Shown one piece after another: positions 2,313-20,233 of a stretch of DNA of 21,059 nt. Position 1 is the first letter of the stretch; each line of letters begins with the position of its first letter. This DNA comes from a virus: positions 1-21,059 of the IMG/VR virus record IMGVR_UViG_3300017750_000149. One strand, 5' to 3'. Under the pieces are notes generated by a model that was not told the origin of the DNA, ran no database searches, and saw only the letters and a list, made by a program, of their open reading frames with translations. Position numbers and translations under genes: made by a program.

Positions 2313-3479
2313 TTAGCTGTCGTCTGCACTATTAAGATTGTTTGTGATTGTTACTGTTGGAGCAGGAGCTATATTAAATGTTGCTCCGCCTTGCGTTATA
2401 GCATCTGGCATCAGATAGCTTAGTGTAGGAGTTAACGTACCGTCAATAATGTTATTGTGTGCAGTATCATCTAGTACTATTTTTAGATGTACTTCGGCTC
2501 CGTTTGCCGCATATTTTCCATAGAGTTTAAACTTCAATGACTGATAGCTACTGTACATGCTGTATGCACTAACATATACTGTGCTACTGTATGATCCGCC
2601 GATAATTGCAGGATCTGCCCACTGTGGGAAAGCGCCTGGTCCACTGATGTATCCATAACCATACCCAGAAGTTCCTGAATCGCCTACTGTTCTATTTAAA
2701 GTAACACCACTTGATGTAAACAAAAGACCTTCATCTGCTGATCCAGCATCACTGCCATCACCGTAATACTGTGTTAATTGATAAAAACCTTTACCTGTGC
2801 TTGTACCAGCTGTAGTACTACTACTTTGTGTTACTGTGTCCCAATCTAAATTTAATACACCCATTTCATTTATAACATCGCTCCAGTTATAATATCCTGC
2901 TGTACTTCCGCCACTCATAGCTAGATTGAGTCTTACTTGTCCGCCACTATTAAAAAAGTATCTTGCTTTGTTATAGCTTCCCCAGGTCCATTTGTGTTCA
3001 CCTGCAAGTTTGGTGTTCCACTGTGCGGTTCTAGTATACGGACCTCCGGATACTGGTGTTGCAACCAATGCACTAGCATTTGTAGCATCAACTGTTAAAT
3101 GATTATTATTTGTTAAGATACTGCCGTCAAATTTTGTTTCTACTACGTTTAAATCTTCAGCCCTGATAGTTGTTCCAAGTGCTACATTATTTCTATTTGC
3201 TGGTACTACAAAAACTAAATTACCGTCGGTAACATTTATATGATCAATACTAACATTTGTACGCTCGACCATTGCTTGTAATCTTGCGGCAGTAATTAAA
3301 GTACCAGCAGACAAATTGTAAGGAATATCAGTGGCGCCCCAGCCAAATTTATGTGTATCGATTCTATTACTATCAGTAACTGCCGCGGTTTGGTAATTAT
3401 CACCAAAAACCTTGTTAACTTTTGTTGCTACCGTATTATAGTGTACCGCAGTTGCTATTTGTCCGGGTGAGACTGCCAT
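2313..3479 (-). CDS. Tail-fibre-like virion structural protein
   Basis: A 388-residue protein, rich in Ser, Thr, Gly and Tyr. The N-terminal ~115 residues (MAVSPGQIATAVHYNTVATKV...) look like a conserved attachment region with helices and short strands. At 171-183 the segment KARYFFNSGGQVR, preceded by HKWTWGSYN, is a signature I associate with tail and fibre structural proteins of marine and T4-like phages. A Gly/Tyr-rich loop (SGYGYGYISGPG, ~270-285) precedes a beta-rich end. No enzyme motif or signal peptide is seen. The ATG abuts the stop of the upstream gene, with GGAG eight bases before it, indicating co-translation with the 304-residue protein. It is the last gene of the virion block; the next gene lies beyond a promoter-bearing gap. 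The precise location in the particle is not known. Confidence 0.75.
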   Translation of the reverse strand: MAVSPGQIATAVHYNTVATKVNKVFGDNYQTAAVTDSNRIDTHKFGWGATDIPYNLSAGTLITAARLQAMVERTNVSIDHINVTDGNLVFVVPANRNNVALGTTIRAEDLNVVETKFDGSILTNNNHLTVDATNASALVATPVSGGPYTRTAQWNTKLAGEHKWTWGSYNKARYFFNSGGQVRLNLAMSGGSTAGYYNWSDVINEMGVLNLDWDTVTQSSSTTAGTSTGKGFYQLTQYYGDGSDAGSADEGLLFTSSGVTLNRTVGDSGTSGYGYGYISGPGAFPQWADPAIIGGSYSSTVYVSAYSMYSSYQSLKFKLYGKYAANGAEVHLKIVLDDTAHNNIIDGTLTPTLSYLMPDAITQGGATFNIAPAPTVTITNNLNSADDS

Positions 3480-4394
3480 TTATTTTGCTCCAACTACTAC
3501 TTCTACTGTGCCTGCATCTTCGGTATCTTTACTCTCAAGTGCCCTACCAATTATTGGTCTAAAATCAGGGCTATCACCTTTATGTGCTATTGCTGTTCCT
3601 GGTGTCGAACTTGATACAATCCTATCACCTTTAACAACTTTTCCAATTACTTTACACGGAACTCTACCTGCTAGTGCTACAAAAGGATGTGTTGCATCTG
3701 TTCCTGCACTTGCATTCATTTCAAATCCTGGCGAGTCACTTACAATTCCAAAAACATCTATGTCTGATTCTTGTAATGTTTGTGTAATTTCGTGTGTACC
3801 ACCTAAGCGTACTACTGTTCCTGCTTCGTATTCTGCATCTGCGGCATAACGTTCTGCAAGGTCAGCATAATCTGCACTAGTAGCTGTACCTCTAAACTTA
3901 TAGTTTGTTGTACTATTCATTTGGATGCCTGCTTGAATAGTTGGAAACTGTGTTGTTAGTGCAGTCGTGCCGTCTTCTAAAAATTCTGTTGATTTGGGTG
4001 TCCAAACTGTAGTATCATCAGTACCTATCCAGACAATGTTGTTATCAACTATCATCTCAATTGTTTTGTGATATGCGTTTGATGTATCTTGTCTATTTCT
4101 ATATTCAAATCTTGTGGTGCTAGCTGGTGCTCCAATTTGGAACCAACTACCGTTATCATAAAGTTTTAATAAACTGTTCGTAGTATCATACCAAAGTTGA
4201 CCTTCGGTAGGATTAGTTGGGGCATTAGCATCAGCAAAGTTTTCTAATAAATGCAGTAAATTTTCATTTAATAGTTCACCGAAATTTGTATAGTTTTTTC
4301 CTATTAAATTAAGACTGGTACTAGTATCAACTGTACCGTCATTTACTGTTATTGCTGTTTTACTACTTTGGCTATAATCTACTGTATATGGCAT
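3480..4394 (-). CDS. Tail-fibre-like structural protein with C-terminal G2-peptidase-like domain
   Basis: A 304-residue protein with two regions. The N-terminal ~90 residues (NLIGKNYTNFGELLNENLLHLLENFA at 29-54, then PTNPTEGQLWYDTTNSLLKLYDNGSWFQIG at 59-88) are a module common in marine T4-like fibre proteins. The C-terminal ~130 residues (YADLAER at 176-182; a valine strand; DVFGIVSDSPGFEMNA at 213-228; ALAGRVPCKV at 240-249; GDRIVSSSTPGTAI at 256-269; IIGRALES at 281-288) follow the order of conserved blocks in C-terminal phage-appendage domains of the G2 / self-cleaving chaperone type ('DYAE... G.VS..PG... ALAGRVPVKV... GD.L..S..PG.A... IG.ALE'). Such domains assist folding or trimerisation in some appendages; I cannot show that this one cleaves itself. 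AGGAAA precedes the ATG. The gap to the upstream gene is 12 bases. Confidence 0.75.
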   Translation of the reverse strand: MPYTVDYSQSSKTAITVNDGTVDTSTSLNLIGKNYTNFGELLNENLLHLLENFADANAPTNPTEGQLWYDTTNSLLKLYDNGSWFQIGAPASTTRFEYRNRQDTSNAYHKTIEMIVDNNIVWIGTDDTTVWTPKSTEFLEDGTTALTTQFPTIQAGIQMNSTTNYKFRGTATSADYADLAERYAADAEYEAGTVVRLGGTHEITQTLQESDIDVFGIVSDSPGFEMNASAGTDATHPFVALAGRVPCKVIGKVVKGDRIVSSSTPGTAIAHKGDSPDFRPIIGRALESKDTEDAGTVEVVVGAK

Positions 4395-4406: not shown

Positions 4407-5006
4407 TTATAAGTCCGCAAACGAACTTCTTATTCTTAATGTATAAACAACTTGTATCTTTCGATTGGCACTTTTTTGTACCGGGTGAAAAATTACGTGA
4501 GTCAACAAATCGTTGTTGGCTGTATAAAGTGCTAGTTCGTCAAATACGTATGTACCATTCATATTGGTAGCTGTATCTGTAGTGTCTTGTCCAGTTGGAG
4601 TTCCGTAGTCTAATGTACAAGTGACAGTTACATCACTATATGCATTTGGACTAGTGTGGCTAGCTTCTGTACTGTTGTCTGCACTTCCGCTAATTGTTTC
4701 ATCTACTGTTTGACTGTGTGTCTGATTATACAATGCTCCACTAGCACTGTTTGTATTTGTTGCTTTGTATGTAACAGCACCCAGTCCGTCTATACTTGTT
4801 CCTCCGTTACCAAAACGAAGTGTTTTAATTTCATATGTACTTGTTGCTCCTGATTCAGAAGCTAATAGGTTTGCAAGTGCAATGCTCATATTTTCAAAGT
4901 TTACAGCATTACGTCTACGAACCAGAACCTCACCTGATTCAGGATCCCAAATTTTAATATGACCTTCAATACCTATTAGTGGTGTTTCAATTTGTTCTAA
5001 ACTCAT
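4407..5006 (-). CDS. Uncharacterised virion structural protein
   Basis: A 199-residue protein starting MSLEQIETPLIGIEGHIKIWDPESGEVLVRRRNAV. The first ~60 residues read as a beta-rich attachment domain with the pattern 'G...I.D..TGE.+..+.NAVNFENMSIALA..LA', which I associate with structural proteins of marine T4-like phages. IKTLRFGNGGTSID (~66-79) follows, then a Ser/Thr/Asn-rich middle and a beta end (YVFDELALYT, LLTHVIFHPV, IQVVYTLRIRSSF). The longer reading from 5090 overlaps the giant gene by 62 bases. I prefer the ATG at 5004-5006 because GGAAG lies five bases upstream and an exact T4 late promoter sits just before it. A baseplate-rim or fibre-connector role is inferred from its place after the gp7-position gene, but it could be any tail component. 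Confidence 0.72.
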   Translation of the reverse strand: MSLEQIETPLIGIEGHIKIWDPESGEVLVRRRNAVNFENMSIALANLLASESGATSTYEIKTLRFGNGGTSIDGLGAVTYKATNTNSASGALYNQTHSQTVDETISGSADNSTEASHTSPNAYSDVTVTCTLDYGTPTGQDTTDTATNMNGTYVFDELALYTANNDLLTHVIFHPVQKSANRKIQVVYTLRIRSSFADL

Positions 5007-5025
5007 AATATCTTCCAATTTATAA

Positions 5026-5033
5026 TATTTATA
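5026..5033 (-). promoter_or_regulatory. T4-type late promoter TATAAATA
   Basis: The minus strand carries an exact TATAAATA, the T4 late promoter recognised by the phage sigma factor gp55. It overlaps the stop codon of the giant gene. Transcription would begin near 5020, leaving a ~14-base leader holding the GGAAG ribosome site of the gene at 4407-5006. Sequence match and placement are seen; activity is inferred. Confidence 0.65.
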
Positions 5034-8000
5034 TCGATCCTTGCCCTGCATTTCTAATGAATGCATGCTCTGGTGAAATTCCTGCGGCACTTAGGCTTAC
5101 ACCGCTATCATTGTACGCCATTCTCAAATTATCACCATAATCAGAGAACTTTTCCAGTATCGGAATACGTGTTGTTGCGCCACTGTTTACTACAGTTGCA
5201 CCGCTGTTGTGTGCTTTTTGTGCAGTTCCTAATGTGCCTCTTGTGCAATATAGTAAGTTATTACCACTTACTGCACTATATTCAATTCTTTCGCCGTTGA
5301 TGTAAACAACTCCAGGAACTTCGCCTACACCAAATACTGTGTTAGGATTATCTAATACAGTTGCATCTGCTACAGGAATTGTTGTATCTAATCCGGTAAC
5401 ACTTGCAGTTGTTGTTGTCTTTTGTGCATCTACAATAACATTACTAAATTGTATGTCATTTGGTTGATATACACTCATTCTAAATGTTCTTGTATCAGAT
5501 GTTACTGTATTTCCACTAGCATTTGTTTGAACACTAATTGCAATATTCTCTGTGAAGTCAGTCGGATAAAGTTCTTCACCCCATCCTTCACAAGCAGGTT
5601 GATCAAATACATTTCCATTATATATGAATTCGATATCATTGTCAACAGTTGTAAAATTAGCGTAATCTACTTGATTGCCAAATACAGTTGAAAATGCGCC
5701 GCCATCTAACACAAGATCACAATCCCAATCTCTTGTTGTATGATCGTTATGTTTAATTGTAATAGCCATATTTCTTGTTTGCTCGTCAACTTGTATATCA
5801 GTTGCTTCTGCATGAGTATTTGAATCTATTAGACTTAGCAACTTTGTATGAAAAGGTTTAATTTGATTAAAGTAATCTTCAATAGTTTCAATACTGTATC
5901 TTTGATACTTTTCTTTATTTGTTAGTAACTGATGTTTAACTTTTAGTTTGACATAGCTAGTTTTAAAAGCAAAATCATCTGTTGTATTTTGTAATATTGC
6001 TGAATATAGTAGCTTAAACCATAACTTGTTGTACTTAACTTTGTGACGACCTATGAATATTTTACTTCTTACAATATCCATTAACTTGCTTATTTGTTCA
6101 CTACTGCCACTATCGTAAGGGGTCATTGCATAACCAGCTGAGTCAAAGCCATGTCCAAACTTACTTTCAAACCAAAATTGTTCACTAAACTCTAGTGTTG
6201 CTTTTTCTTTGTACACTAGTTTACTTTTTTCGTTAGTGAATAAAAACATTTCTTGTCGGTTTATTCCATCATCACCGATGTTGGTTTTAATTAAAACATA
6301 ACTTCCGTCAGCTGGATCTACATCATTATTATAATCATCTAAATTATCGTATACCACGTCTGCTACTGTATTTGGATTGAAACTAAAAGTAGTTTTACCA
6401 CTTGCATCTTTTTCTACTAGATACCAATCTTTATAACTTGTATAATTTCTAAGATTATAAGTTGTATTTCCTTTTACAAAATCATCAAATAATACTGTGT
6501 ATCCGTTAATCTCATCTACAACATTTATCTCACCAACTAAATCATTGAGTGCTTCAATAAAATTTTGTCTTGCTTCTTGTATGTTTCTGAATAAAGTTTG
6601 TCTAGGTCTTACTAAGTGTCCATAACGATTATGTCTATGAAGATCGTAATCAGGTAAATGTTGTCCTTTCCAGATTTTAATATCATCTTCTTGAGTAACA
6701 TCTATTAGACTATAATCATATATCTTACTCCAGTTAGTATTATTTAAATCTGTTGACGGATCGTTGTTCTGGTTTGGTTTTAAACTTGTGTAATAACTTC
6801 CATTGTGTAATACAACTGCATCTTGTGTATAAGCAGTAAAACTTGACCAAGTTGTATATGGTTTATCTTCAGCATAATTATTGTAACTTGCAAGACTATC
6901 TCTCATTTTAATATGAAAGTACTCTGGAATAATACAAGAAGGATCACCGTCAGCTAATAGCTTCCATTCATTCAATGGCATACTATTTGTATCTCCATAA
7001 CTTTGATTAACTTGTACAACACTATTTTTGGTTACAAATGAATCAATGTTGTTTAGCAACAACTGACTATCACCACTAGCCGCCGCCCAACTTAATCCAT
7101 AACCGTTTGGATTGGTCAGTAAAGTAGACAATTGTTTTACGTTGTACTGTCTAGATCCTTTGTATGAAAGTTTATCTTTGACCCAGAAGTAATACACACT
7201 TTCGTCTCGTTGTGTGCGTGGATTATAGTATACCTGTTCAGTCCAGTTATACACTTTTTCGTTATTAATTATATTAAAGTAGGCTTCGCCACTCGCTTCA
7301 GATCCGTCAATGACAATAGCATCATCTACAGCTTGACTCCACTGATCTGGTAAAACAGGAGATCTTGTCCACTCGTATATATCAATTGTTGCGCCGTCAG
7401 CTAGCTTACCCCAATTTGCTTGTTGATAATCTATTGTGCTTTGTTCGTAGTCTAAATAGATTGCAGTACTAATATTCCACCATCTGGTGCCTACCCATTC
7501 GTCTTTCCAAGCTGAGGTGTTTATAATTTCGCCATCGTTGGTATTATAGTTATAGCTAGCAATATCATTAACTAATTTGAAGTCAATTTCTTTATCAATA
7601 AATCCAAATATAATACCTTTAGCAGGATCATATGTTTCAATGTTTGCTATGCTAGTTCGACTTACTGCATCATATATTTTAACATTACTAATTAAATCGT
7701 TACGTGCTTGTTCAATTCCATTACGCACAAGATTCCAACTTCCATTGTTGTGACCGTTATTGTCGTCCCAATCACCTACCCATTTGTATACTGCACTTTT
7801 GTTATATCCATCGTCATCTACAAAAGCATAAATTGGATTAGCACTTTGTTGTTGTCTAGTTCCTGAGAAGTTATATTTGTAAACTCCGTTTACTTGTTGA
7901 TTTTTCACACTATCTAAACTATTGTATGTGTCAAATCTAACTGGTCGTAATGGATATACGTTTCCTGCGGCGCCTTCTTCTTGGATATATTCGTCAATAT

Positions 8001-11000
8001 AAAATTGTGCAGTATTACTAGTATCAACTCTGGTTACTTTGTGTATTCCGTCGATGCTTGGTGTTGTAGCACTGCCTCGTATTAATACAAAATCACCTGC
8101 TACTAAGTTATGTGCTTGTGTAAGATTTGAAGGATTTCTAGATACAGTAATTTGTGCTTCATCTGCACTATCAACTCCAGCACAACTTTTTGAAATATAC
8201 ATATCAAAATCCATTGTTTGATATACTTCATAACCTTTATTATAATTTCCAAACTCACTATCGTCTGCAACCCATATACTCAGTACATTAGGATCAGTAA
8301 TCTCTTGGAAAACCTCCACGCCACTTACTATAGCATTGAACACATTTGATACATTTGTTGCAATTGCTGTAATTGTTTTGGCTGTTATGCCAATAACACT
8401 ATTTGCAGTACCTGCACCTATTACTAGTGTACTATTTGTACTGGTTAGCTTTAATCTGTTGTTGCTATTGCTTGCTGTTACGCCACTGATTGTTGCTGTA
8501 TTAATTTTGTCTACAATATCGTTAATACCAAGAGCCACACCACTAGTACTTGTTGATGTACTCGCTGGAGTCACACCTTGTGTTAAACCAATAACACTAT
8601 TTGCAGTACCTGTTCCAATAAACAGATTTGCAAGGTTACAGTTTATCTGTAGTAAATTTGTATTAGCACTATTAATCTGCGCCGTAATTCCTGTAATGTT
8701 AGCATTATTAATCTGTGAAACTACTTGTGAAATAGTTAAGTTAGGTGTACTTGTAGTAATACTACTTGTTGCCGCAATAGTTTCTGTAACACTACTAAAG
8801 CCTACATCACTGTTTGCTGTGCCTGCACTAATTACAAGACTATATGCAACAGTAGGTGTACTTGTAGTTTTTGTAATCCTTAAAAAATTACTGCTTGCAC
8901 TTGCAGTAATGTTAGCAATTCCTGCGGCTGTAATCTTGTTGACTATATCACTAAGTGAATATGTTTTGAACACTGTCGAACTTTGTGTTGTTACCACAGT
9001 ACTATTTGTAATAGTTACAGTTGGATTAGCAATTAGATATGTTTTAACGGCTGTGATATATGCTCCAGAGGCTATAGCTGTTTGTGTTGATGTTATATCA
9101 CTACTTGGTATTACAGTAGATCCACTTAGTACTGCTGACGCTACATAACTATTTCCAGTTTTAGCATTTATTAATGCTACATCGCTGGTAATTAAACTGG
9201 CTAGTTGTGTTGCATAACTTGGACTAGTATTGTACAAGGCAAGTGTTTGTGTCATATTAACACCTGCATCACTAACACTAAAATATGTTGTTAAAAATGT
9301 TGCCCAAGCACTACTGTTATTTGCACTAATGTAAGCAACACGTAAACTTTCTAATGCGGCTGATCTGTTTGTAGCCAGTGTGGTAACATTACTAAAACCA
9401 TTGGCATTGAATGCATTCTCAAATGCCGCTTGTAATGTTACGTTTGATGTACTGCTTACTGTATCATTGAATGTCACTGTTGTACCATCAATTATCAAAG
9501 TTTTTGTTGCACTTCCTACAAAACTTGGGTTACTCACTGTGCCTGTTTTTACAATGTTACTATAATTTGTTGTGGACACTGTATTGGCAAATGTAATTGT
9601 TTCTGCAAGCACACTATTTTCTCCAAAGATCAGTGTACTACCATGTGTAACTACGTTAGATGTTACAATATCCTGTGTTCCGATTTTGTTAATAACACCT
9701 AATGCTGTAGTTGTTGAAGTTTTTGTTAAGCTCACAGTATTATTATCAATTACAATTGTCCCGCCACTTGCAGGTACAACCGGAAGTGCAACTGCGCCTA
9801 TTAGCTCAATTGATTCATTGGCACTGCTCAATCCTGAATATCCTTTAGGATCAATCATTTGATACGCTTTACCTTGATAAATTATCTTATCGTTGAACTT
9901 ATAGCTTTTATCAGGTTCCCAATAATTAGAAAGTTGCCAGTCTCCATCAAAGCTATAAACACTTTTTGTCGGAGTAGGAAATGATAACATATCTTCTCTT
10001 TTTAATACTCTGAAGTCTGTTTCACTGGTTAGCGGTAATCCTGCTTTAATGTAGTCATTTGCAAATACATTTTCTTCTGTAATACTGTTATTATCATAAG
10101 TGTTTACTGCTCTTGTTGTAAAATTACTACCAGGTGTACCTGTAACTATCAACGGACTATTTAAATCTATATCAATGGACAGGTCAGTTAATACATCATA
10201 CTTCTGAGTATCAAAAAATCTAACAGGTTGTGGACTAGTTACTACTAAGTCAGGTGTAATTTCAAATTCTAAAGTTTCTCTGGATCTCGTATCACCAAAG
10301 TCACCTAATCTAACTGCCCATTCTTCATGTAGTTCTCCAGTAGCATCTGCATCAAAAATACCTTTGTTTCTTAAAAATGAATCTAGTGCATGCCTAGTAC
10401 CTTTGTACTTGTATGAGCCTTTGACCAACTCGAACAATGAATCATCTTCTATGTCTAAGTTTTCAGCCCATGTTGGTTGATTATATCCAACATTGAATCT
10501 AGCTACATTACTTTTTTGTTTATCCGAAAGTGTTTTTGTTTTGCCAAAATATTCATCAGCTTGTCCAGCTAAACTATCAAAGTTTGGAATAATAGTATCG
10601 TTGTTAACTATAAATCCAGGACTATATAATTTTCCGTTCCAGTCTTTTGTTCTACTACCTTGCCATACAATTCTAGTGTGTCGTTGTCCTATAATAGGAT
10701 CATACAAAACATCACTAAAGTCAGTAATACTGTCAAACACAATTATATGTTCTATTTCAGTTTTGTAAAGTCTTAAACCATAAACTTCAGTAGCACTTGT
10801 TTTTGTTTTGAATACAGTATCACTATCTGGAATCATTAAGTTTCTATTTACAATTAGATCATTTGACGATATTCTCTTACCCAAAGAATCGTTTATATTA
10901 AACACGCCATCATATTTAGAATCTAAATTATCAAAATATCCACTGTGACCATCATTTACAATTATAGAATTTGCATTAGGAATTAGATATAACTTGTCTG

Positions 11001-14000
11001 CACTATCGCCGTTTGCCCATGTAATAAAATCAACTCCTAAACTTTTCCAATCTTGTGGGAAGCCTAAGCCATTTAGATAGTTACCATAACCTAAAATAAA
11101 GTTATAAGTGTCTTGAATAGTTGTGATGGTAGTGTTATAATTTAATTGACTGATTGATGTCTCAAACCCAGTATATCGATTTACAGTTATATTGTCAATG
11201 GGCACTGCAATTACACTACTGTTTGAATCAGACTTATTATAGTTGAAATAATAATTGCTATTGTCGTAGCCTGATATTTTATATCCTGACGATACTTTTT
11301 CAAGTATTATACCGCCGTAAAAATATTCTCTGCTAGGCTTGCTGTTGTACAAAATTGTTTTGTAATTTTCTTCTGGAACTACAACTCTTCCTTTGTCTTG
11401 ACTGCTTTCTAAAATAAATTTTTGATTGTTGTTTACAAATCCACCAGCTTTGATAATTGGAGAATATTTCATTTTGTCCAATCTAACTCTGATATCAGCT
11501 GACGAAGTTGCTTCTATTCTAGCATATTCAATCATTGCGTTTTGCAAACCTACATGATATTCTATATGATTATCAGCAATATAAGCATCGATTACAGCAT
11601 TGCCCGACACTGTTACTGTAGGACTATTATAATAGTTACTGCCTGTATTGGTTATACTAACACTCTTCACACTTCCATTTTCAATAAATGCTGACATAGT
11701 AGCGTCAGATCCAAAGTTATCATTAATGGTTATTGTTGGAGCACTTGTATAGCCAGTTCCAGCTGAAACTATTCTTACTAGTTCAACTATTTTTCCTTGT
11801 GATTGTTCCCCTGACAGATTAACTGTTTTGAAACTTGTTAGTTTATTGTCTTTGTTACTAACTATAATTGGTTTATCAAATTTAGTTGTTGCATTGTTTA
11901 CATTTTTCTCAACTCTATAATTAGTTGAAAAATAATCGTTTAGTGCAATCAAAGGTCTAGTTTTTAAAAGTGCGAGAAAGCTAACAATTTTATACTCACT
12001 AGTACTTCTCCATTCTGCTTCGACTGGTCCCCAATCACCATAAGCAAAATCTTTGGATCGTTCTGCCGCACTTGGTGTACCAACAACGTTAGCTGTGTCT
12101 GGATCATTTAGCACACCAGCATTAGTAACCAAAACATTATTTGCCCAGTCATAACTGTTGTAACTGTAATTAATATCAAACACATCATTGGTACTAGGAT
12201 CACTGACTTTACCATATTTTAATGCTGTGATTAATGCACTTCTTTTAGTTGCATTAGTCCAACTATAATTACTATCCCACCAAGTTGGTTTTTTACTATA
12301 GCCCATCATTTTCCAAGGGTGTGTATGAGGCTTATCTGTATTAAAGAAATAATGATATATTCCTCTCCAACCACCTATGTTTGGAGTAACACTACTATAG
12401 TTCCAAGTAAATTTGTCACCGCCGCTATAGTATGAAGTAGCATTATATCCAGACTTGTTGTTTTTAATACTCCATTTATTATATTCACTTTTTATAGAGT
12501 CTTGTACTTCAGCCCAACTATATCTGTCTGCCCTATGTGCGTTAGGACCATATGTTGAAATATTTTTTACATCATCATGTTTTATGTTTAAGTTATTAAA
12601 AATTCTACATTCTAAATCATATATTACTGCATCTTCTGGACTAAATCCTGCACGAGATCTGTCGTATAATTCAGTACCTTTCCTGATGTGTACGCTACCG
12701 TCATGTGCTATTATAACATTAGTATTTGCTGTGCTATTACTATCTATACTATAATCTGATCTTAATTCAGGATTATGAGGTTTAATCATACCTAGCTTTA
12801 CTGCACTGCTAGGAACAAAACTTAAACTGTCACGCTTGTACCATCTGACATGTGCTCTTGCAAGCCCGTCTGATGGATATGTAATTGTAGTTGTGATAGT
12901 TACTTTATTGCTTGCTAGAGTATAGTCTATTCCTTTAACTAAACTTCTCCATCTTTTGTTTCCTAAACCATCAGCATCATTTACCCAAACTTGTATATGA
13001 TTCTGGGAGTCTTGATATGTGTTAACGCTTTGTGGTAAATCAAAAACTTTTGTAGCTGTATTTGTAAACGAAAAGTCTTCACTGGTGAATTCTTTAAACA
13101 TTGCCATATCGCTTCTGGCAAATGCACTATCTTTATTACTACCTAAACTTAATGCTTTTAAGGTCTCGTCGGTTAATTCGTGAACACTTTTTGAAATGTC
13201 CAAAGACTTATTTAATTGTACAGCTTTTTGTTTAAACTTTTGCAAGAATAATGAATAGTTGTTACTTGCATGTTTAACACTGCTAATAATATCAGTATCT
13301 TTATCCATCATTGTTTGATTCAACATTTCAGTTGAATAAGGCTGTTGCCTAATTGTTCCACCAAATTCATGTACGTGTGCTAGATTGCGATAGTTGTTTA
13401 CGCCAAAATAATTTCCAGTAAACCCTGGTATAGATTCCATTTGGTTACGCATATGTTCAATTAAATCTCCAAAGCTAACTTTTGTCATTGTTGTGTTCTG
13501 CGGATTTAACGTTTGTACGTCAGCAACTTGTTGATCACCTTCAGCCGTATCACTGTAAACATTATGTGTATAATATTCAACTTCGTACTTGTCATTTTCA
13601 GATAAGCCTCCTGTTATGGTGAGTATATTACCAGATATTGTATAATTTGTTACTTCAGAACCGTTGTTATAAACTTTTACAGTTGTATCATTTGCTACTG
13701 TATTGAAATATATAATACCATAATTGGTTGGCGAAGCCTTTATTCTATATTTTATTTCACTAACAGTTGGATTAGTAATTGCAATAGTAAACTCATCTCC
13801 TGAACCAGCATTTCTTGTATAGCCGCCAGCTATAGCAGTTCCGTCTGTGTTTACAAATTCTATTTCAGCTTGTGGAAATTGTGTTTTAATTGTGTATGTT
13901 GTATTAGTATTCCAAAACAATTCAGGCATAGTGCCGTTGATATCGTTGAGATTATTCTTTAAACTAGTGGTTTGCTGTGACTTAACATTATACAACCCAT

Positions 14001-16299
14001 TAAACTTTGTAAAAGTGTAACATCTATCATTGTTATAAGTTCCGTAACCTAAATCAAAATTAAGTGCTTGTGTAGCAGTTTGTTTGGTTACTGTTTTTCT
14101 AATTAATCTTTTAACTGGTTGTCCATTTCTTACTAGTGACCAACCATTGAAAGTTTTGTTGTTAAAATCTTTGAACAAGTAATAACCTTTGATCTTTTGT
14201 CTAGACTTTTGATTATTAGTATTGCTATCAGTGTAATATATTTCATTTGTTAAGAAAGGCATTTCAAAATTTAAACCTGGACTATTTCCATAGTCAACAT
14301 AGTCAGGTGCAAATCCTAATGCATCATCTACTGTGTTTGCTAAATTTTTACTGTAGTCAAATAGTGCTAGTCCTTGACTTTCGCTCTGTGGATATAAACT
14401 AGTGTCATTCAATGATACTCCGTTGATATCAAATAGTGTAACATTCATTGCAGTACTTTTTGCTAGCTTTTGTTGACCATATACCCAAGCTGTTCCATTC
14501 CAATATATTTCACTACCACTGTATGGTTTGTTTACTGTTAATAAGTCACTGCTAGCTGTAGGATCAGTGTTAAATGTTTCTCTTCCATTGAGTATAACTA
14601 TCTTATCATTTGTATTAATAGCAGTACTACTAGGGCCAAAAATTTCTGTCAATGCAATACTAGTTCCAACACCAGATACTTTGTAAATTTTATTATCATA
14701 TGCTGAGTTAGCTGTGTCTACAAAAAGAAATTTGTCGCCGTTTTCAATTTCACGTGGTGTAATATGGCTCCAATATTCGTTGTTCTCTCCATGTATAGGA
14801 TTCTTTGGTTCTGTATGACTTTGCACACATTCGTAATACCTTCTAAGAATGTTAGGACTAGATCCAACATCAACATAAACATATGCACCTTTGGTGTATC
14901 CTGCATAAGCACTTGCCCACGCTGTTGATCCTTGAACGTTCCAAGTAAATTCTGTTTTCCCAACTATTCCTGTTGCAGGATTAAAGTTAGATCCACCATA
15001 CACAAAATTTACATAATCAATATGATTCTGACCAAAATTATATTTTTGGAAGTTGCCTTTATATTCAATGATTGGTCTTACTGCTCTTATTTTATCTAAC
15101 ACATAGTCAGTAAAATTTAAGCTAGTGTCAAATTCTGTAATAGCTTTAATTGTATCTTCATGCACCCATAAATTACTTCTTGCCCATGCACTTTGATCTT
15201 TACTATATCTCTGTTCAACTACATAGTCTCTAGTGGTCATCACATATTCTTTAAAGTCATATGGGTCTAAATCAAAGCCAATACCAACTTCATCAAACCC
15301 AACAGGTTCTTGACTACTGTACATAGTATGATTTAACCAAACACGATCTCCGTCTAAGAAGTAAGAGTCTGGACTTGCAAAATGTTTAGTAAGTTTAATG
15401 CCTCCACTGTCACCTACGTTATCAACTATGTAAATGTCTCCAACTGCATAATCTCCGCTAGTACTGTGAGCATAAAAGTTACGTATTTTAACTGTATCAC
15501 CATTTGCAGGCGCATTTGTAAAAGTAACAACGCCTGAACTACTGTTATAGGTATAGTCTACGTTTACAGTTTGTAATATAGTATTTTTATAAACTTTTAC
15601 AGTGCCTGTTGTAATTGCAACCGAAGATGTAAATACCTTGTTTGTGTTGCCACTTTGAGTAAATTTATCCAGTACAGTTGAATCAAACATAATTCTCATA
15701 CCGTTTTGCAATGTAAGTGTGTTACTTGTGCTTAGTGTCGGAGTAGTATATGTTACTGAATTTACTATTTTATCAATATCAATTATTGCACTGCTTGTTG
15801 GTTTAATACTCACGTGCGGTACTGTATCCAAAGCCCAATAATACTTGTGATAGTTTATAAACATATCATAGTTTATGGGAAGGTCTAAAGTATATCCTTT
15901 TTCATCAAATACTTTGTTATGGTTATTCATATTAACTTCATTAAATTTTAATTGATTAATCAAATCATCATAAGGCATTACTTGTGAGATATTATTGCTT
16001 TTATCAACATTTACTAAACTAGGTGTAAATTGATATGGATCACTGTCTCGGTTATCAGCAATGTAGTTGTCTACTGTTGTATTTTTATTAAACTTAGATC
16101 CCACATAACTCTTTACGGGTTGTAAACTACCTGTTGATAAAAGTTGATCAAGTGTAGTATCAATGAATCCTTTGTTTATGTCTGTTCTGAAAATCTCAGG
16201 AAGAAAACTAGAAATGTCTCTAGTACCCGTATATTTTTTACTGTCGCCAGGATTGGTGATTAAAGGAGCTATATTAGGATTTGCTTTGCGTTCGCTCAT
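5029..16299 (-). CDS. Giant virion structural protein in the gp7 (baseplate wedge) position
   Basis: An unbroken 3,756-codon frame follows gp6 with a TAATG one-base overlap and a strong GGAGGTT ribosome site. T4 gp7 is 1,032 residues, so this is over three times longer. Residues ~1-75 (SSFLPEIFRTDINKGFIDTT, then LDQLLSTGSLQPVKSYVGSK) look like the conserved N-terminus of gp7-position proteins in marine T4-like phages. The conserved C-terminal third includes IYDAVSRTSIANIETYDPAK (~2870-2890), LPDYDLHRHNRYGHLVRPRQ (~3213-3233) and a VVYINGERIEY ... CTRGTLGTAQKAH module (~3640-3715). Between them lie beta-modules of VxVNG...DY...ND type (~230-275, ~865-912, ~1090-1155), a GTGYTSAP repeat (~1505-1570), W..Y..GD.V...G..Y modules resembling CBM5/12 (~455-511, ~2121-2166, ~3144-3190), and three Thr/Ser/Ala-rich tandem repeats (2447-2655). 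No enzyme motif or membrane segment is seen. Assignment as gp7, perhaps with fused gp8-like parts, rests on gene order and is moderate. Confidence 0.8.
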   Translation of the reverse strand: MSERKANPNIAPLITNPGDSKKYTGTRDISSFLPEIFRTDINKGFIDTTLDQLLSTGSLQPVKSYVGSKFNKNTTVDNYIADNRDSDPYQFTPSLVNVDKSNNISQVMPYDDLINQLKFNEVNMNNHNKVFDEKGYTLDLPINYDMFINYHKYYWALDTVPHVSIKPTSSAIIDIDKIVNSVTYTTPTLSTSNTLTLQNGMRIMFDSTVLDKFTQSGNTNKVFTSSVAITTGTVKVYKNTILQTVNVDYTYNSSSGVVTFTNAPANGDTVKIRNFYAHSTSGDYAVGDIYIVDNVGDSGGIKLTKHFASPDSYFLDGDRVWLNHTMYSSQEPVGFDEVGIGFDLDPYDFKEYVMTTRDYVVEQRYSKDQSAWARSNLWVHEDTIKAITEFDTSLNFTDYVLDKIRAVRPIIEYKGNFQKYNFGQNHIDYVNFVYGGSNFNPATGIVGKTEFTWNVQGSTAWASAYAGYTKGAYVYVDVGSSPNILRRYYECVQSHTEPKNPIHGENNEYWSHITPREIENGDKFLFVDTANSAYDNKIYKVSGVGTSIALTEIFGPSSTAINTNDKIVILNGRETFNTDPTASSDLLTVNKPYSGSEIYWNGTAWVYGQQKLAKSTAMNVTLFDINGVSLNDTSLYPQSESQGLALFDYSKNLANTVDDALGFAPDYVDYGNSPGLNFEMPFLTNEIYYTDSNTNNQKSRQKIKGYYLFKDFNNKTFNGWSLVRNGQPVKRLIRKTVTKQTATQALNFDLGYGTYNNDRCYTFTKFNGLYNVKSQQTTSLKNNLNDINGTMPELFWNTNTTYTIKTQFPQAEIEFVNTDGTAIAGGYTRNAGSGDEFTIAITNPTVSEIKYRIKASPTNYGIIYFNTVANDTTVKVYNNGSEVTNYTISGNILTITGGLSENDKYEVEYYTHNVYSDTAEGDQQVADVQTLNPQNTTMTKVSFGDLIEHMRNQMESIPGFTGNYFGVNNYRNLAHVHEFGGTIRQQPYSTEMLNQTMMDKDTDIISSVKHASNNYSLFLQKFKQKAVQLNKSLDISKSVHELTDETLKALSLGSNKDSAFARSDMAMFKEFTSEDFSFTNTATKVFDLPQSVNTYQDSQNHIQVWVNDADGLGNKRWRSLVKGIDYTLASNKVTITTTITYPSDGLARAHVRWYKRDSLSFVPSSAVKLGMIKPHNPELRSDYSIDSNSTANTNVIIAHDGSVHIRKGTELYDRSRAGFSPEDAVIYDLECRIFNNLNIKHDDVKNISTYGPNAHRADRYSWAEVQDSIKSEYNKWSIKNNKSGYNATSYYSGGDKFTWNYSSVTPNIGGWRGIYHYFFNTDKPHTHPWKMMGYSKKPTWWDSNYSWTNATKRSALITALKYGKVSDPSTNDVFDINYSYNSYDWANNVLVTNAGVLNDPDTANVVGTPSAAERSKDFAYGDWGPVEAEWRSTSEYKIVSFLALLKTRPLIALNDYFSTNYRVEKNVNNATTKFDKPIIVSNKDNKLTSFKTVNLSGEQSQGKIVELVRIVSAGTGYTSAPTITINDNFGSDATMSAFIENGSVKSVSITNTGSNYYNSPTVTVSGNAVIDAYIADNHIEYHVGLQNAMIEYARIEATSSADIRVRLDKMKYSPIIKAGGFVNNNQKFILESSQDKGRVVVPEENYKTILYNSKPSREYFYGGIILEKVSSGYKISGYDNSNYYFNYNKSDSNSSVIAVPIDNITVNRYTGFETSISQLNYNTTITTIQDTYNFILGYGNYLNGLGFPQDWKSLGVDFITWANGDSADKLYLIPNANSIIVNDGHSGYFDNLDSKYDGVFNINDSLGKRISSNDLIVNRNLMIPDSDTVFKTKTSATEVYGLRLYKTEIEHIIVFDSITDFSDVLYDPIIGQRHTRIVWQGSRTKDWNGKLYSPGFIVNNDTIIPNFDSLAGQADEYFGKTKTLSDKQKSNVARFNVGYNQPTWAENLDIEDDSLFELVKGSYKYKGTRHALDSFLRNKGIFDADATGELHEEWAVRLGDFGDTRSRETLEFEITPDLVVTSPQPVRFFDTQKYDVLTDLSIDIDLNSPLIVTGTPGSNFTTRAVNTYDNNSITEENVFANDYIKAGLPLTSETDFRVLKREDMLSFPTPTKSVYSFDGDWQLSNYWEPDKSYKFNDKIIYQGKAYQMIDPKGYSGLSSANESIELIGAVALPVVPASGGTIVIDNNTVSLTKTSTTTALGVINKIGTQDIVTSNVVTHGSTLIFGENSVLAETITFANTVSTTNYSNIVKTGTVSNPSFVGSATKTLIIDGTTVTFNDTVSSTSNVTLQAAFENAFNANGFSNVTTLATNRSAALESLRVAYISANNSSAWATFLTTYFSVSDAGVNMTQTLALYNTSPSYATQLASLITSDVALINAKTGNSYVASAVLSGSTVIPSSDITSTQTAIASGAYITAVKTYLIANPTVTITNSTVVTTQSSTVFKTYSLSDIVNKITAAGIANITASASSNFLRITKTTSTPTVAYSLVISAGTANSDVGFSSVTETIAATSSITTSTPNLTISQVVSQINNANITGITAQINSANTNLLQINCNLANLFIGTGTANSVIGLTQGVTPASTSTSTSGVALGINDIVDKINTATISGVTASNSNNRLKLTSTNSTLVIGAGTANSVIGITAKTITAIATNVSNVFNAIVSGVEVFQEITDPNVLSIWVADDSEFGNYNKGYEVYQTMDFDMYISKSCAGVDSADEAQITVSRNPSNLTQAHNLVAGDFVLIRGSATTPSIDGIHKVTRVDTSNTAQFYIDEYIQEEGAAGNVYPLRPVRFDTYNSLDSVKNQQVNGVYKYNFSGTRQQQSANPIYAFVDDDGYNKSAVYKWVGDWDDNNGHNNGSWNLVRNGIEQARNDLISNVKIYDAVSRTSIANIETYDPAKGIIFGFIDKEIDFKLVNDIASYNYNTNDGEIINTSAWKDEWVGTRWWNISTAIYLDYEQSTIDYQQANWGKLADGATIDIYEWTRSPVLPDQWSQAVDDAIVIDGSEASGEAYFNIINNEKVYNWTEQVYYNPRTQRDESVYYFWVKDKLSYKGSRQYNVKQLSTLLTNPNGYGLSWAAASGDSQLLLNNIDSFVTKNSVVQVNQSYGDTNSMPLNEWKLLADGDPSCIIPEYFHIKMRDSLASYNNYAEDKPYTTWSSFTAYTQDAVVLHNGSYYTSLKPNQNNDPSTDLNNTNWSKIYDYSLIDVTQEDDIKIWKGQHLPDYDLHRHNRYGHLVRPRQTLFRNIQEARQNFIEALNDLVGEINVVDEINGYTVLFDDFVKGNTTYNLRNYTSYKDWYLVEKDASGKTTFSFNPNTVADVVYDNLDDYNNDVDPADGSYVLIKTNIGDDGINRQEMFLFTNEKSKLVYKEKATLEFSEQFWFESKFGHGFDSAGYAMTPYDSGSSEQISKLMDIVRSKIFIGRHKVKYNKLWFKLLYSAILQNTTDDFAFKTSYVKLKVKHQLLTNKEKYQRYSIETIEDYFNQIKPFHTKLLSLIDSNTHAEATDIQVDEQTRNMAITIKHNDHTTRDWDCDLVLDGGAFSTVFGNQVDYANFTTVDNDIEFIYNGNVFDQPACEGWGEELYPTDFTENIAISVQTNASGNTVTSDTRTFRMSVYQPNDIQFSNVIVDAQKTTTTASVTGLDTTIPVADATVLDNPNTVFGVGEVPGVVYINGERIEYSAVSGNNLLYCTRGTLGTAQKAHNSGATVVNSGATTRIPILEKFSDYGDNLRMAYNDSGVSLSAAGISPEHAFIRNAGQGSI
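8335..8961 (-). repeat. Three in-frame tandem repeats in the giant structural protein
   Basis: Residues 2447-2655 of the giant protein hold three copies of a 66-74-residue unit. Each begins with L.I.DIV.KIN.A.I.G.TA, continues to a short L.L or I.I strand, and ends near (I)G.GTANSVIG(I/L)T. The GTAN boxes fall at residues 2493, 2564 and 2630. At DNA level 25 bases are identical between 8390-8414 and 8588-8612, exactly 198 bases apart; the third copy is diverged and 213 bases further on. The DIV.KIN / GVTAS pattern is reminiscent of repeats in bacterial surface and flagellar-hook-associated proteins, but that link is only visual. Confidence 0.7.
11590..11787 (-). repeat. GSGYTSxP-type beta-repeat pair in the giant protein
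   Basis: Residues ~1505-1570 contain IVSAGTGYTSAPTITIND followed by a second, looser copy (SITNTGSNYYNSPTVTVSG). A closely similar pair lies in gp6 (~620-693). The unit is a short Gly/Tyr/Pro beta hairpin seen in phage structural proteins; its function is not known to me. Confidence 0.6.
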
Positions 16300-19200
16300 T
16301 AGTAACCTCCGCTCGACATACCAGTTGAAGTTAACAATCCTGAAGTACTCTCTCCAATAGTAGTACTATTTCTTGCTACACTTTTAGTAACTGTAATATT
16401 ACTAGTTTTAATTACTGGTAGAAATAATTCATCACCGTTTGATGTAATCTCAAATAAGTCTGTTGTATCATCTGTATTTCCAACTGGTTGTATTGTTACT
16501 TGACTTATTTCACCAATCATATTATTGTGTATATAAGCCGCCATTTCTGTAAAGTAGAAATCTTCACCGAAGTCCCAATTTTCTATACTAAAATATTGTG
16601 TAATAAGTTGTATAATATTTTGTTTAATTTCTGTATCACTCATTGAACTGTTGCTTGTTTTAGTTACATTAAATCTAGCTTGTAGTTCGCTGTCAGCAAG
16701 ATCACCAAATAGTATCTTGTATTTTACAGGTCTGTATATTACTTGGTCACTAATTGCTTTTTTAGATTCTAACGTACTAAACAAATTGGTTAATTCGTTT
16801 ATTGTTGGGCTGTTGGGTTTTGTTTCTATTCTACCATCATAATTAGCCCAAATTCTAAAGTCACTGTCATAACTTTGTAATAGTACATATGTATCAATAA
16901 TGTTTGTAATTGCAGGATCAATTACATTATCAACATCACTTATTCTATTATATTGAGTATGCAAGTCTGCTCTACCATTTACTATGGTTGATCCATTTGA
17001 ATCATATACTGTATAATTAAATCCGTCGACTGTTTTTGTTCCTAGCTTAATAGTCTCTCCACGCAGAATAGCATTAAAACTTTCTGGATTGGTTGGATAG
17101 TTTCCATTATCTGGGCTAGACAATGTGACTCTTACTTTGTAAGGGTCTGTATACCCGTCTTGATATGTAATATATCCAAATGTGTTAAAGGTATAATCAG
17201 CGCCTAGTGGTGTAGGATCATTGGGAGTAAGTTTGTTAATACTTAAAACTTTAAGTGTATCTTTTAAAGGTTTCCTTGTTTCACTACTAAATGATTCATT
17301 AAAATTTAAATTACCAAATTTTAACTTTTGTGTGCTTCCAAATACCAATTGTGTTCTTCTTGCTAATACTTCCCATTGGGTGCTTGAATAATTTAGTCTG
17401 ATTAGCCAACTGTTATCTCTTCCAGTTTGTGCATTATCGGCTTCATAAAGTCTACTCCAACTAGCTACACTGTTGTTGGCAATTGTACTTGCAGGTAAAT
17501 TTGAACTTGAAATTATTTGCCAAGACTGACTAAGACTATTGTATCTTAGGGCAAAACTTTCTTTTGAATCTATTTTGCTTAACACAGAACTTTTAACTGT
17601 ACTATCAAAGTCTTTTTGTAATATTGGAACAATCCTACGCACTCTACTAGCACTGTTTACAATGCCACTTAGCACAATAGCACCTTTTCCTGCATTGTCT
17701 AAACCTGTTGGTGATCCACTAGCGTCATCATCTCCTAGTCCGTCTTTGTATATTTTATCAATCTTCACCCATTTAGTTTCTGCAAAAGCAACACTAACAC
17801 TGGCAGATGCATTTGATCCGCCGCCGCCTGTGATTGTTACAACTGTATTTGCATTATATCCGCTACCAGAATTAGTTACTGTGATTGATGTGATTTTGCC
17901 ACTTGCAACTGTAGCTGTAGCTGTTGCGCCAGTACCTGCACCGCCAATAGTTACTGTTGGCTGACTTGTATAGCCAGAGCCTTCATTTACTATAGTAATA
18001 GTATTAATATAACCCATCTTGTAAGGCGCACTAATAAACTCTACTAGACCACCTAAGCTGGCTTTTCTTAAAGCATTTGTTTGTACAAGTCCAACTCTTT
18101 GAATATAAGGTCCAGAACCAGTATTGAGCGTAAAGTATCCACTTGAACTGGTAGCTCCTTTGGTAATTTGATTCCATCTAAAAACATTAGTTTCGTCGTT
18201 GGTAGTTGCATTAGCTGATGTAATGCTATCGGTTGTGTCGTTAAAATCTGTTGTTGGGCTGTAACCAGCACTCGAATATCCTTGTCTATTGTAATAGAAG
18301 TTTTTAAGCTCTTCGTTACTTAACAAAGGTAAAATATATTTGTTGTAAAGTTGTTCACTTGTTAGTGTGTTTGGTAGTGTAATTAAACTACGATTTGTTA
18401 TATTGTTCTCATAGATATATCCATCATCGGCGTACATGGTTGCATCATTATAAGTTGCTGTAGGATCATACAAGTCTCTGAACCTACTATGTCCACTGTG
18501 TACTCTATTAACACTTTTAATTTTAGCAATATTTTCACTAACTGTAATTGGGAATATACTATAGTCTTCAGCGGTAATCATTCTATCTTGTGTTGCAAAA
18601 AATCTAGGTGCATTAACTTTAATACTATCTAAACTTTCTCTTTCACTTGCATTTGAAACTTTGTCTTTTAAACTACATGTTAGTGTAGCAGTGTGAATGT
18701 TACCATCTACTCCGACATAATCAAACAAAAGAGAAGTATTTCTAAAATTATTAGGATCAAGTGAATAAGTTGAATTTAATCCAACTCTGTACCATACTCT
18801 GATTATTCCTCTTGGTATATTGCCAAATGCACCATCACCAAAAACAATACTAATTTGATCGTTTTCTCTACTAGCGACTGAATATATGTTTCTAATATTA
18901 TTACTAGTAGCATTAAAAATAGTGCTTGCACCAAATTGTCTATCTACTCTTGTCCAGTTCTGTTGTACTTGTCCTACTTCGTCGATGTTTTGTACCCATA
19001 CTTGACCGTTGGCAACATTTTCAACATTTATATCTAATACAATATTAGGCAATCCTTCAGTGATATTAAAATCTTTATACTCTAATGTACCTTGTTTAAA
19101 GCCAACAAAGAATCCTGTATTTGAACTAGTGTTACCACTGTTGTCATCTTTATACAGTAAGTCAACAACACTGTAAGGATCAGGTGTCTTTTCTGCTAGT

Positions 19201-19871
19201 GTGTTAGTAGTTGTATTTGCACTTACACTGTGAAAACTAAAAGTAGCACCTCTATTGTTTACTTGATTGTCAAAGTTTCTTACAGCAATATTATTAACAC
19301 TATTGGTTCTGTAAATTTCGTTAGTAACACCAGCACTTGTAAATTTACTAAACGGACTGCCAAATTGACTACTAGTTTGAAATATGCTATTCATAATAGC
19401 TAAAAAGTTTTGATAGCTATTTGGATCTGTTGTGTCATCAAATTGTACAGTGGTATTTGCTAAACTATTTCCTAACGAATCAAATACTGATTCTGTAGTA
19501 AAAATACTTTCAATTTTTAAATATCCACTAGCTACAACGTTTCTAGTAGGGTTATATCCTAAAAATTCAGCAATACGTAATGCACTCTCTCTGCGTTCAG
19601 CTGTACTTAAAAAGTTCTCTCTGCTTGCTAGGTCTGATCTAAATGCTAAGTTATGTCCTAAAAACGACATAAGTTCTATCAAACTTACAAATTCACTTGA
19701 ATTAATCCAGTCATTATAATTTTCTGGATAATTCCTATTAATATAATCAACCATTGCGTTACGTATAGTTTCATAATCATATGCTTGAAAATTTGCTTCA
19801 CTGAAACTTTCGTATACTACACTAAAATCTTCTGCAGAAAATAAACTACTTTGTCTTGCGCCTTGTGCCAT
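16299..19871 (-). CDS. gp6: Baseplate wedge subunit gp6
   Basis: The N-terminal ~120 residues give the identification: AMVDYINRNYPENYNDWINS, EFVSLIELMSFLGHNLAFRS, DLASRENFLSTAERRESALR and IAEFLGYNP match the start of T4 gp6 and its marine homologues (YPE..ND...SSEF..LIEL.AFLG..LAFR.D...RENF...A.RR+S). gp6 forms the dimeric core of the baseplate wedge and drives the sheath-triggering rearrangement. A second conserved block lies at ~385-440 (RESLDSIKVNAPRFFATQDRMITAEDY), typical of the Baseplate_J/gp6 family. At 1,190 residues it is nearly twice T4 gp6 (660). The extra length includes a GSGYTSQP / GSGYNANT beta-repeat pair (~620-693). The start codon overlaps the gp25 stop (TAATG) with AGGTGA upstream, so the two are translationally coupled. 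gp25 and gp6 are partners in the wedge, which fits. Confidence 0.92.
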   Translation of the reverse strand: MAQGARQSSLFSAEDFSVVYESFSEANFQAYDYETIRNAMVDYINRNYPENYNDWINSSEFVSLIELMSFLGHNLAFRSDLASRENFLSTAERRESALRIAEFLGYNPTRNVVASGYLKIESIFTTESVFDSLGNSLANTTVQFDDTTDPNSYQNFLAIMNSIFQTSSQFGSPFSKFTSAGVTNEIYRTNSVNNIAVRNFDNQVNNRGATFSFHSVSANTTTNTLAEKTPDPYSVVDLLYKDDNSGNTSSNTGFFVGFKQGTLEYKDFNITEGLPNIVLDINVENVANGQVWVQNIDEVGQVQQNWTRVDRQFGASTIFNATSNNIRNIYSVASRENDQISIVFGDGAFGNIPRGIIRVWYRVGLNSTYSLDPNNFRNTSLLFDYVGVDGNIHTATLTCSLKDKVSNASERESLDSIKVNAPRFFATQDRMITAEDYSIFPITVSENIAKIKSVNRVHSGHSRFRDLYDPTATYNDATMYADDGYIYENNITNRSLITLPNTLTSEQLYNKYILPLLSNEELKNFYYNRQGYSSAGYSPTTDFNDTTDSITSANATTNDETNVFRWNQITKGATSSSGYFTLNTGSGPYIQRVGLVQTNALRKASLGGLVEFISAPYKMGYINTITIVNEGSGYTSQPTVTIGGAGTGATATATVASGKITSITVTNSGSGYNANTVVTITGGGGSNASASVSVAFAETKWVKIDKIYKDGLGDDDASGSPTGLDNAGKGAIVLSGIVNSASRVRRIVPILQKDFDSTVKSSVLSKIDSKESFALRYNSLSQSWQIISSSNLPASTIANNSVASWSRLYEADNAQTGRDNSWLIRLNYSSTQWEVLARRTQLVFGSTQKLKFGNLNFNESFSSETRKPLKDTLKVLSINKLTPNDPTPLGADYTFNTFGYITYQDGYTDPYKVRVTLSSPDNGNYPTNPESFNAILRGETIKLGTKTVDGFNYTVYDSNGSTIVNGRADLHTQYNRISDVDNVIDPAITNIIDTYVLLQSYDSDFRIWANYDGRIETKPNSPTINELTNLFSTLESKKAISDQVIYRPVKYKILFGDLADSELQARFNVTKTSNSSMSDTEIKQNIIQLITQYFSIENWDFGEDFYFTEMAAYIHNNMIGEISQVTIQPVGNTDDTTDLFEITSNGDELFLPVIKTSNITVTKSVARNSTTIGESTSGLLTSTGMSSGGY
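16304..16310 (-). promoter_or_regulatory. Strong ribosome binding site of the giant structural gene
   Basis: GGAGGTT on the minus strand lies four bases before the ATG at 16297-16299, inside the last codons of gp6. It fixes the start of the 3,756-residue protein at the TAATG overlap. Confidence 0.75.
17793..18014 (-). repeat. GSGYTSxP-type beta-repeat pair in gp6
   Basis: Residues ~620-693 of gp6 read NTITIVNEGSGYTSQPTVTI, then SITVTNSGSGYNANTVVTITG, with a Gly/Ala-rich link. At DNA level GGCTATACAAGT and the following CCAACA are shared with the pair at 11590-11787. It lies where gp6 is longer than T4 gp6. Confidence 0.65.
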
Positions 19872-20233
19872 TATTCTTCACCTGTAAATCTAAGAAACAG
19901 TTCTTCCGCTGTTCCTGTGTCAATATATTCCATCCGAACCTTAACCTCAATGCTATGGTCATCTGGTTTATCAACTAATGTTTCTAATACTTTCCATCTC
20001 GGATCATTGTTAACTATAACATCAACATCTTCTTGTGCGGCAGTAATTGTAGTTAAGTCATTGGGTTCAAAAACTAACTCTGGAAGTATACTTCCAAATT
20101 CAGGATTCATAACACGTTCACCTTTACGAGTATTAAAGTGATTCATTAAATCACGCCTAGCGATGTCGATGTCTTCTAAACTACGACTTCCGATTGTCTC
20201 GCCTATACTGCTATATCCTACATAAGTTGCCAT
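19871..20233 (-). CDS. gp25: Baseplate wedge subunit gp25
   Basis: A 120-residue protein of the GPW/gp25 family; T4 gp25 is 132 residues. The core SLEDIDIARRDLMNHFNTRKGERVMNPEFGS is seen across residues 18-48, including the NPEFG block typical of the family. The C-terminal half (NNDPRWKVLETLVDKPDDHS, then IEVKVRMEYIDTGTAEEL) completes the single-domain fold. gp25 sits in the wedge core where it seeds the tail sheath. The start agrees with the MATYxGYSS opening of marine homologues. There is no Shine-Dalgarno before this ATG: the 32-base gap reads ...AATAAATACTTGT, and the late-promoter variant AATAAATA lies only five bases before the start codon. Expression may therefore depend on a near-leaderless late transcript or on readthrough from the upstream gene. 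The stop overlaps the gp6 start. Confidence 0.93.
   Translation of the reverse strand: MATYVGYSSIGETIGSRSLEDIDIARRDLMNHFNTRKGERVMNPEFGSILPELVFEPNDLTTITAAQEDVDVIVNNDPRWKVLETLVDKPDDHSIEVKVRMEYIDTGTAEELFLRFTGEE

Follow-up and report, generated by a model that had tools for sequence, protein, structure and literature searches.

A 3,756-residue protein in the gp7 position of a jumbo-phage family, probably an enlarged baseplate wedge scaffold

The giant protein encoded in the stretch of viral DNA analysed here (the window, 21,059 nucleotides) is probably a gp7-equivalent scaffold of the baseplate wedge that has been enlarged and carries inserted docking modules; the window itself would come from a marine myovirus related to jumbo phages. 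The protein is not unique: it belongs to a known and widespread jumbo-phage family, PHROG 10938, and is ordinary within it. Its identification as gp7 is plausible and somewhat favoured, with position in support and sequence stopping short of proof, and draws on three points: the location of the gene; the finding of no other gp7 in eight jumbo genomes; and weak motif matches.

The window is an entire IMG/VR record, a 21-kb fragment. On its minus strand, a single unbroken reading frame runs from an ATG to a stop (16299..5029) and encodes 3,756 residues, and its ATG overlaps the stop codon of gp6 (TAATG). The preliminary description had placed a protein of this length in the gp7 position, and the frame does follow gp25 and gp6. 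Its size was also described correctly as more than three times that of T4 gp7 and over half of the window, the values being 3.6 times (T4 gp7 has 1,032 aa) and 54%. The order on the minus strand is gp25, gp6, the giant, proteins of 227, 304, 388 and 115 aa, and two glycosyltransferase-like proteins. The genes nearest the giant are:

19871..20233, minus strand: gp25-type baseplate wedge / sheath initiator, 120 aa (phrog_43 E=1e-15; PF04965 E=7e-11)
16299..19871, minus strand: gp6-type baseplate wedge protein, 1,190 aa (phrog_10646 E=1e-265; phrog_219, the T4 gp6 family, E=2e-23)
5029..16299, minus strand: giant virion structural protein, 3,756 aa, PHROG 10938, in the gp7 position
4407..5090, minus strand: gene directly downstream of the giant, 227 aa (PHROG 11259 E=1e-57)
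3480-4394, minus strand: fibre-like gene downstream of the giant, 304 aa (tail-fibre-type matches)

The two adjacent reading frames at 147-1019 and 988-1899 (290 and 303 aa) look glycosyltransferase-like by eye (DxD-type IYIDADTL and LLIDTDF); a Pfam search at E 0.01 returned no hit for them, and PHROG a weak match of unknown function. At 20266-21057, the end of a truncated upstream protein resembles a fibre-adaptor pattern (KVNGSIIQHLFDYTLG...LTITKSLTNNDIIETSI).

The whole giant matches PHROG 10938 at E = 2e-222, with matches in six of six consecutive pieces. Family members are found in RaK2, CBB, PA5oct, Atu_ph07, SCTP-2 and at least 500 IMG/VR contigs, and the aa 1620-2045 block has relatives at no fewer than 559 IMG/VR loci. 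Individual giants measure 3,326 aa (RaK2 ORF070), 3,340 aa (CBB_236), 3,857 aa (PA5oct gp355), 4,449 aa (Atu_ph07 gp180), 4,555 aa (Phosso), 3,807 aa (SCTP-2), 3,771 aa (Vibrio phage 2.275) and 3,138 aa (Stenotrophomonas phage RAS14). The size of the window giant is thus normal for the family: 66 complete giant frames, from loci only partly de-duplicated by contig, run from 2,781 to 4,606 aa around a median of 3,740 aa. In IMGVR_UViG_3300035698_016988 (4575-16856), the giant is split into frames of 2,781 and 1,308 aa in the same reading frame; the break lies inside the C-terminal conserved block, with two in-frame stops at the junction, and the gene is either split naturally or disrupted in this copy.

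The gene order is equally regular. The gp25-gp6-giant succession of the window recurs in RaK2, CBB, PA5oct, Atu_ph07 and Phosso, and gp6 ends at most 500 nt upstream of the giant in 146 of the 148 loci with sufficient upstream sequence, counted after the same partial de-duplication by contig. Giants that do not adjoin gp6 occur in SCTP-2 and two IMG/VR loci. In Salicola phage SCTP-2, the upstream neighbour of the giant is gene 141 (8624-17914), which encodes a 3,096-aa beta-propeller-repeat protein of PHROG 8401 and not gp6. PHROGs labels family 10938 'head and packaging'; position and linkage speak for the tail instead.

Orthologues of the giant are virion proteins, on evidence from CBB, PA5oct and the positional equivalent in phAPEC6 rather than from the window phage. 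CBB_236 is represented in the virion by 21 peptides and adjoins the baseplate wedge protein CBB_237 (PMC5259590). In phAPEC6, 17 virion peptides derive from gp245, a 381.9-kDa protein adjoining the baseplate wedge protein gp244 (PMC7247149), with orthology here based on size and on the place beside gp244. The PA5oct giant is marked ESI-MS/MS in its database record. A baseplate-region structural protein in the gp7 slot, as the earlier proposal had it, is supported.

Judged from a 12-genome alignment, the giant consists of framework blocks throughout its length with clade-specific modules inserted between them. The framework comprises aa 1-180, 361-420, 600-720, 900-1080, 1140-1440, 1620-2040, 2881-3120, 3240-3540 and ~3660-3720, with low occupancy elsewhere. 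The main features of the chain, from N- to C-terminus, are:

15760..16299, minus strand: conserved N-terminal block, aa 1-180 (LPEIFRT..FIDTTLDQLL helix), conserved in 12/12 giants; candidate core-bundle helix
15469..15681, minus strand: inserted beta-jellyroll, aa 207-277, predicted T4 gp10 XD2 / CBA120 TSP4 XD2 / T7 gp17-N type
14764..14946, minus strand: CBM5/12-like module, aa 452-512, from sequence motif and clade-specific occupancy, without a Pfam hit of its own
13060..14502, minus strand: framework blocks aa 600-720 and 900-1080 (span aa 600-1080), from the 12-genome alignment
11980..12882, minus strand: framework block aa 1140-1440, from the same alignment
11599..11802, minus strand: glycine-rich GTGYTSAPTITI module, aa 1500-1567, clade-specific
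10180..11442, minus strand: most uniformly conserved block, aa 1620-2040, a beta domain followed by helices
9820..9948, minus strand: CBM5/12-like module, aa 2118-2160 (Pfam CBM_5_12 E=2e-4 with the whole protein, under the curated cut-off)
8377..8961, minus strand: three tandem ~70-aa Ser/Thr/Asn-rich repeats, aa 2447-2641 (IxDIVxKINxAxI..SNSNNxLxI...GTANSVIGI)
6940..7659, minus strand: best conserved C-terminal block, aa 2881-3120 (VGTRWWNIST..NWGKLADGATIDIYEW)
6724..6864, minus strand: CBM5/12-like module, aa 3146-3192, clade-specific (Pfam E=0.04 on a piece; occupancy)
5680..6582, minus strand: conserved C-terminal block, aa 3240-3540 (YNKLWFK..DDFAFKTSY..KPFHTKL)

Conservation was expected at the N-terminus and in the last third, where it is indeed present, but it extends to aa 600-720, 900-1080, 1140-1440 and 1620-2040 as well, blocks that distant jumbo phages share. 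Likewise, the middle does contain inserted modules and the three repeats, yet it is not simply filled by them, as framework blocks lie between. The giants of RaK2, CBB, PA5oct and Atu_ph07 share the family, the slot after gp25 and gp6, and the N-to-C series of conserved blocks, and RaK2-like and other jumbo giants are 24-31% identical to the window giant in the best-conserved block. A further difference is that the jellyroll, CBM-like and glycine-rich inserts of the window clade are its own.

The CBM_5_12 match in the giant scores 21.5 bits and does not reach the curated Pfam cut-off of 26.2. A profile of the relatives' insert matches chitin-binding domains (CBM5/12) among PDB sequences at E=1e-4; searched in the same way, the block profiles gave nothing beyond these matches, which arise via the insert in relatives. 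The glycine-rich GSGYTSxPTVTI/GTGYTSAP module is found both in the giant and in the gp6 of the window (aa 621-699; 17776-18012), with a paralogous match that covers gp6 aa 621-684, and matches PHROG 701/460/1922/2885. By tblastn, many cyanophages have similar modules in gp7, gp53, head-closure and fibre proteins. From these sequence relationships, the glycine-rich element is best described as a mobile virion module.

Structure prediction in pieces, another of the proposed checks, covered aa 1-460 and aa 1600-2060. An AF2 model of aa 1-460 (68 sequences) has a pLDDT of 78, with values >90 across aa 207-277, and one clear predicted helix in the N-terminal region, at aa 40-54; the gp7 family has an N-terminal helix-turn-helix in its (gp6)2-gp7 core bundle. 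The segment aa 207-277 is predicted to adopt the XD2-type jellyroll fold of T4 gp10. In VIA, it matches the LME-1 tail (Z 10.3), CBA120 TSP4 XD2 (Z 9.8), the T7 gp17 N-terminus (Z 8.7) and T4 gp10 residues 162-249 (Z 6.3), and Foldseek pairs it with TSP4 at prob 1.00. Such modules in T4 gp10 and CBA120 TSP4 dock other trimeric proteins (PMC8825819). In T4 gp10, TSP4 and T7 gp17 the jellyroll is trimeric, whereas in the giant it would lie inside a presumably single-copy wedge chain. The model of aa 1600-2060 (74 sequences; pLDDT 83.6) shows a beta domain and, after it, the KGT helices, and its matches in the PDB are weak. Its top three VIA matches are baseplate proteins of phiKZ, KP1 and T4 (gp6-type; Z 4.2-4.8), with no gp7 among those listed; as these gp6-type matches tie with unrelated entries, they are suggestive only. 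Foldseek searches of the PDB, that with this model included, returned zero matches at E <= 0.001, and the BFVD matches of this model are family members only.

The gp7 assignment can also be approached through sequence profiles. The conserved blocks had been described as recognisable; their conservation runs within the jumbo-phage family and is undetectable against T4 gp7, and profile searches of both ends against T4 gp7 gave no match. With hhalign, none of the N-terminal, middle and C-terminal giant blocks was significantly similar to T4 gp7, cyanophage gp7, jumbo gp6 or T4/cyanophage gp6. The best alignment, built from about 98 non-redundant giants, is to cyanophage gp7 (E = 0.019, prob 2.5%) and places KGT on KGT at giant aa 1963; one of 60 column shuffles was equally good. 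The giant N-terminus aligns in the correct register, although weakly, with the cyanophage gp7 N-terminus (E = 0.1; 6/60 shuffles equally good). Weak though this evidence is, the two landing points on cyanophage gp7 fall in the correct order. The motif FYxGxIxxKGT is present in all distant giants, and its candidate counterpart in gp7 is DFYxxKGT, which comes after the core helices:

10345..10584, minus strand: helical segment with the KGT motif (YKYKGTRHALDSFL at 1963), giant aa 1906-1985; candidate DFYxxKGT equivalent

No separate gp7 turned up elsewhere. Profiles of T4- and cyanophage-type gp7, which detect gp7 in T4 and QB2, found nothing in eight complete or near-complete related jumbo genomes, the genome of the window being known only as its 21-kb fragment. 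Conversely, the phrog_10938 profile found nothing in T4, V05, QB2 and S-SZBM1. The giant and gp7 are therefore mutually exclusive in the tested genomes, which fits orthologous or functional replacement. In the related jumbo genomes, gp8 was unrecognisable save for one stray match at E = 0.008 in Atu_ph07. Tail_P2_I (gpI) went undetected in the jumbo genomes and in T4 alike, which makes that comparison uninformative. Pfam and NCBIfam gave no curated hit for the giant, and phmmer with the whole protein against the PDB gave one chance match only.

Known gp7 proteins vary widely in size. T4 gp7 (PHROG 964) resembles the giant in sitting between gp6 and the peripheral wedge genes and in its KG motif region; it differs in being 3.6 times shorter and in a profile similarity that is not significant. 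The minimal gp7 orthologues, Vibrio phage XM1 gp17 and Anabaena phage A-1(L) gp32, have about 150-242 aa, and the role that they are proposed to share with the giant is that of a third wedge chain that also anchors spikes or fibres. At the other extreme, proteins annotated as gp7 ('baseplate wedge initiator/subunit') follow gp6 in Synechococcus phages S-SZBM1 (6,619 aa) and QB2 (6,283 aa), so giant gp7 proteins are not new. These loci (8728-26825 and 2587-21438) take up about 11% of the genome, with ~5,000 residues inserted. The cyanophage proteins share with the window giant the slot after gp6, a length of several thousand residues, the GSGYTSxP module type and the KGT motif. In contrast to the giant, their core is detectable against T4 gp7 (KGT segment, hhalign 93%, E = 3.5e-7), and PHROG 10938 was not detected in them.

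If the giant is the gp7-equivalent scaffold, each wedge would contain one chain of it, joined to two gp6 subunits immediately below gp25. Contacts would be made by the N-terminal helix (aa ~30-55) and the KGT-containing helical segment (aa ~1906-1985), which would correspond to the parts of the (gp6)2-gp7 core in T4, XM1 and cyanophages. An early idea was that the helices just ahead of KGT (aa 1906-1940) might instead form the core hairpin in place of the N-terminal helix. The framework would carry the baseplate further outward, and fibres or accessory proteins would be held by the inserted modules, among them the gp10-XD2-type jellyroll. Copy number, contact with gp6, core-bundle role and module partners are all suggested by analogy with (gp6)2-gp7 in T4, (gp16)2-gp17 in XM1 and (gp31)2-gp32 in A-1(L) (PMC10457771, PMC10966104).

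Extended to the family, this reading becomes more tentative, with slightly less than an even chance of being right: in RaK2-like phages and related jumbo phages, the PHROG 10938 giants would be the long-missing gp7, its core split by an insertion of ~1,850 residues and gp8 either merged or lost. In RaK2-like jumbo phages, homologues of gp6, gp25 and gp53 have been identified, and the giant beside gp6 is annotated 'structural' or 'hypothetical'. As far as the CBB report is accessible, gp7 is not shown in its table of T4-core homologues (PMC5259590). The N-terminal helix and the KGT segment would then lie far apart (their smallest separation among relatives is 1,355 aa), and a single chain would combine the core of the wedge with the framework and the peripheral docking modules. 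The same would have happened in cyanophages, independently or via a common ancestor.

An unlikely, though serious, alternative is that the giant is a peripheral baseplate protein, either replacing T4 gp8/gp10/gp11 or forming a platform for a fibre network, and that the true gp7 is small and undetected elsewhere or has been replaced by extra gp6 contacts. The non-significant match to gp7 profiles would be expected on this account, as would the gp10-type docking jellyroll and the giants located away from gp6 in SCTP-2 and the two IMG/VR loci. It is harder to reconcile with the near-invariant place right after gp6 and with a KGT motif kept in all distant giants that aligns best with cyanophage gp7. 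Moreover, the jellyroll is absent from RaK2, CBB and Vibrio 2.275; since many family members lack it, docking through this module is not the core function.

Selection on the gene bears on a third reading, in which the giant, as a wedge or fibre protein, would serve mainly in host recognition through middle modules that bind the host surface. The giant is a real, constrained gene under purifying selection over its full length. By codon comparison, dN/dS among close relatives is about 0.1-0.2, the ~0.1 value coming from a relative whose best-matching segment is 94% identical, and each block has a dN several-fold lower than its dS. The CBM5/12-like modules (Pfam E=2e-4, sub-cut-off; relatives' profile E=1e-4) and the lineage-specific turnover of modules speak for such a function, but no segment is hypervariable or swapped between close relatives, in T4 gp10 and CBA120 TSP4 the jellyroll fold serves protein-protein docking (PMC8825819), and a separate fibre-like gene lies downstream (3480-4394). 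Because purifying selection is uniform, host recognition is rejected as the main function and is improbable in that role. Of the earlier suggestion that the protein had absorbed fibre or host functions, the tail-fibre-type modules stand (jellyroll Z about 10, CBM5/12-like), but host recognition has no positive evidence.

That the frame is fused or misassembled, as its unusual size might hint, has practically no chance of being correct: the identical frame (100% identity) in two further, independent IMG/VR metagenomic contigs shows that it is not an assembly artefact, dozens of full-length relatives have the same length, and a 382-kDa phAPEC6 protein at the corresponding position was detected in the virion. 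Divergent copies in other contigs are 94%, 67%, 64% and 50% identical.

The gp7-equivalent role offers a concrete assignment, testable by structure, for a protein that ranks among the largest in these virions. If it is true, the conserved core of the contractile tail would be extendable through the insertion of docking modules.
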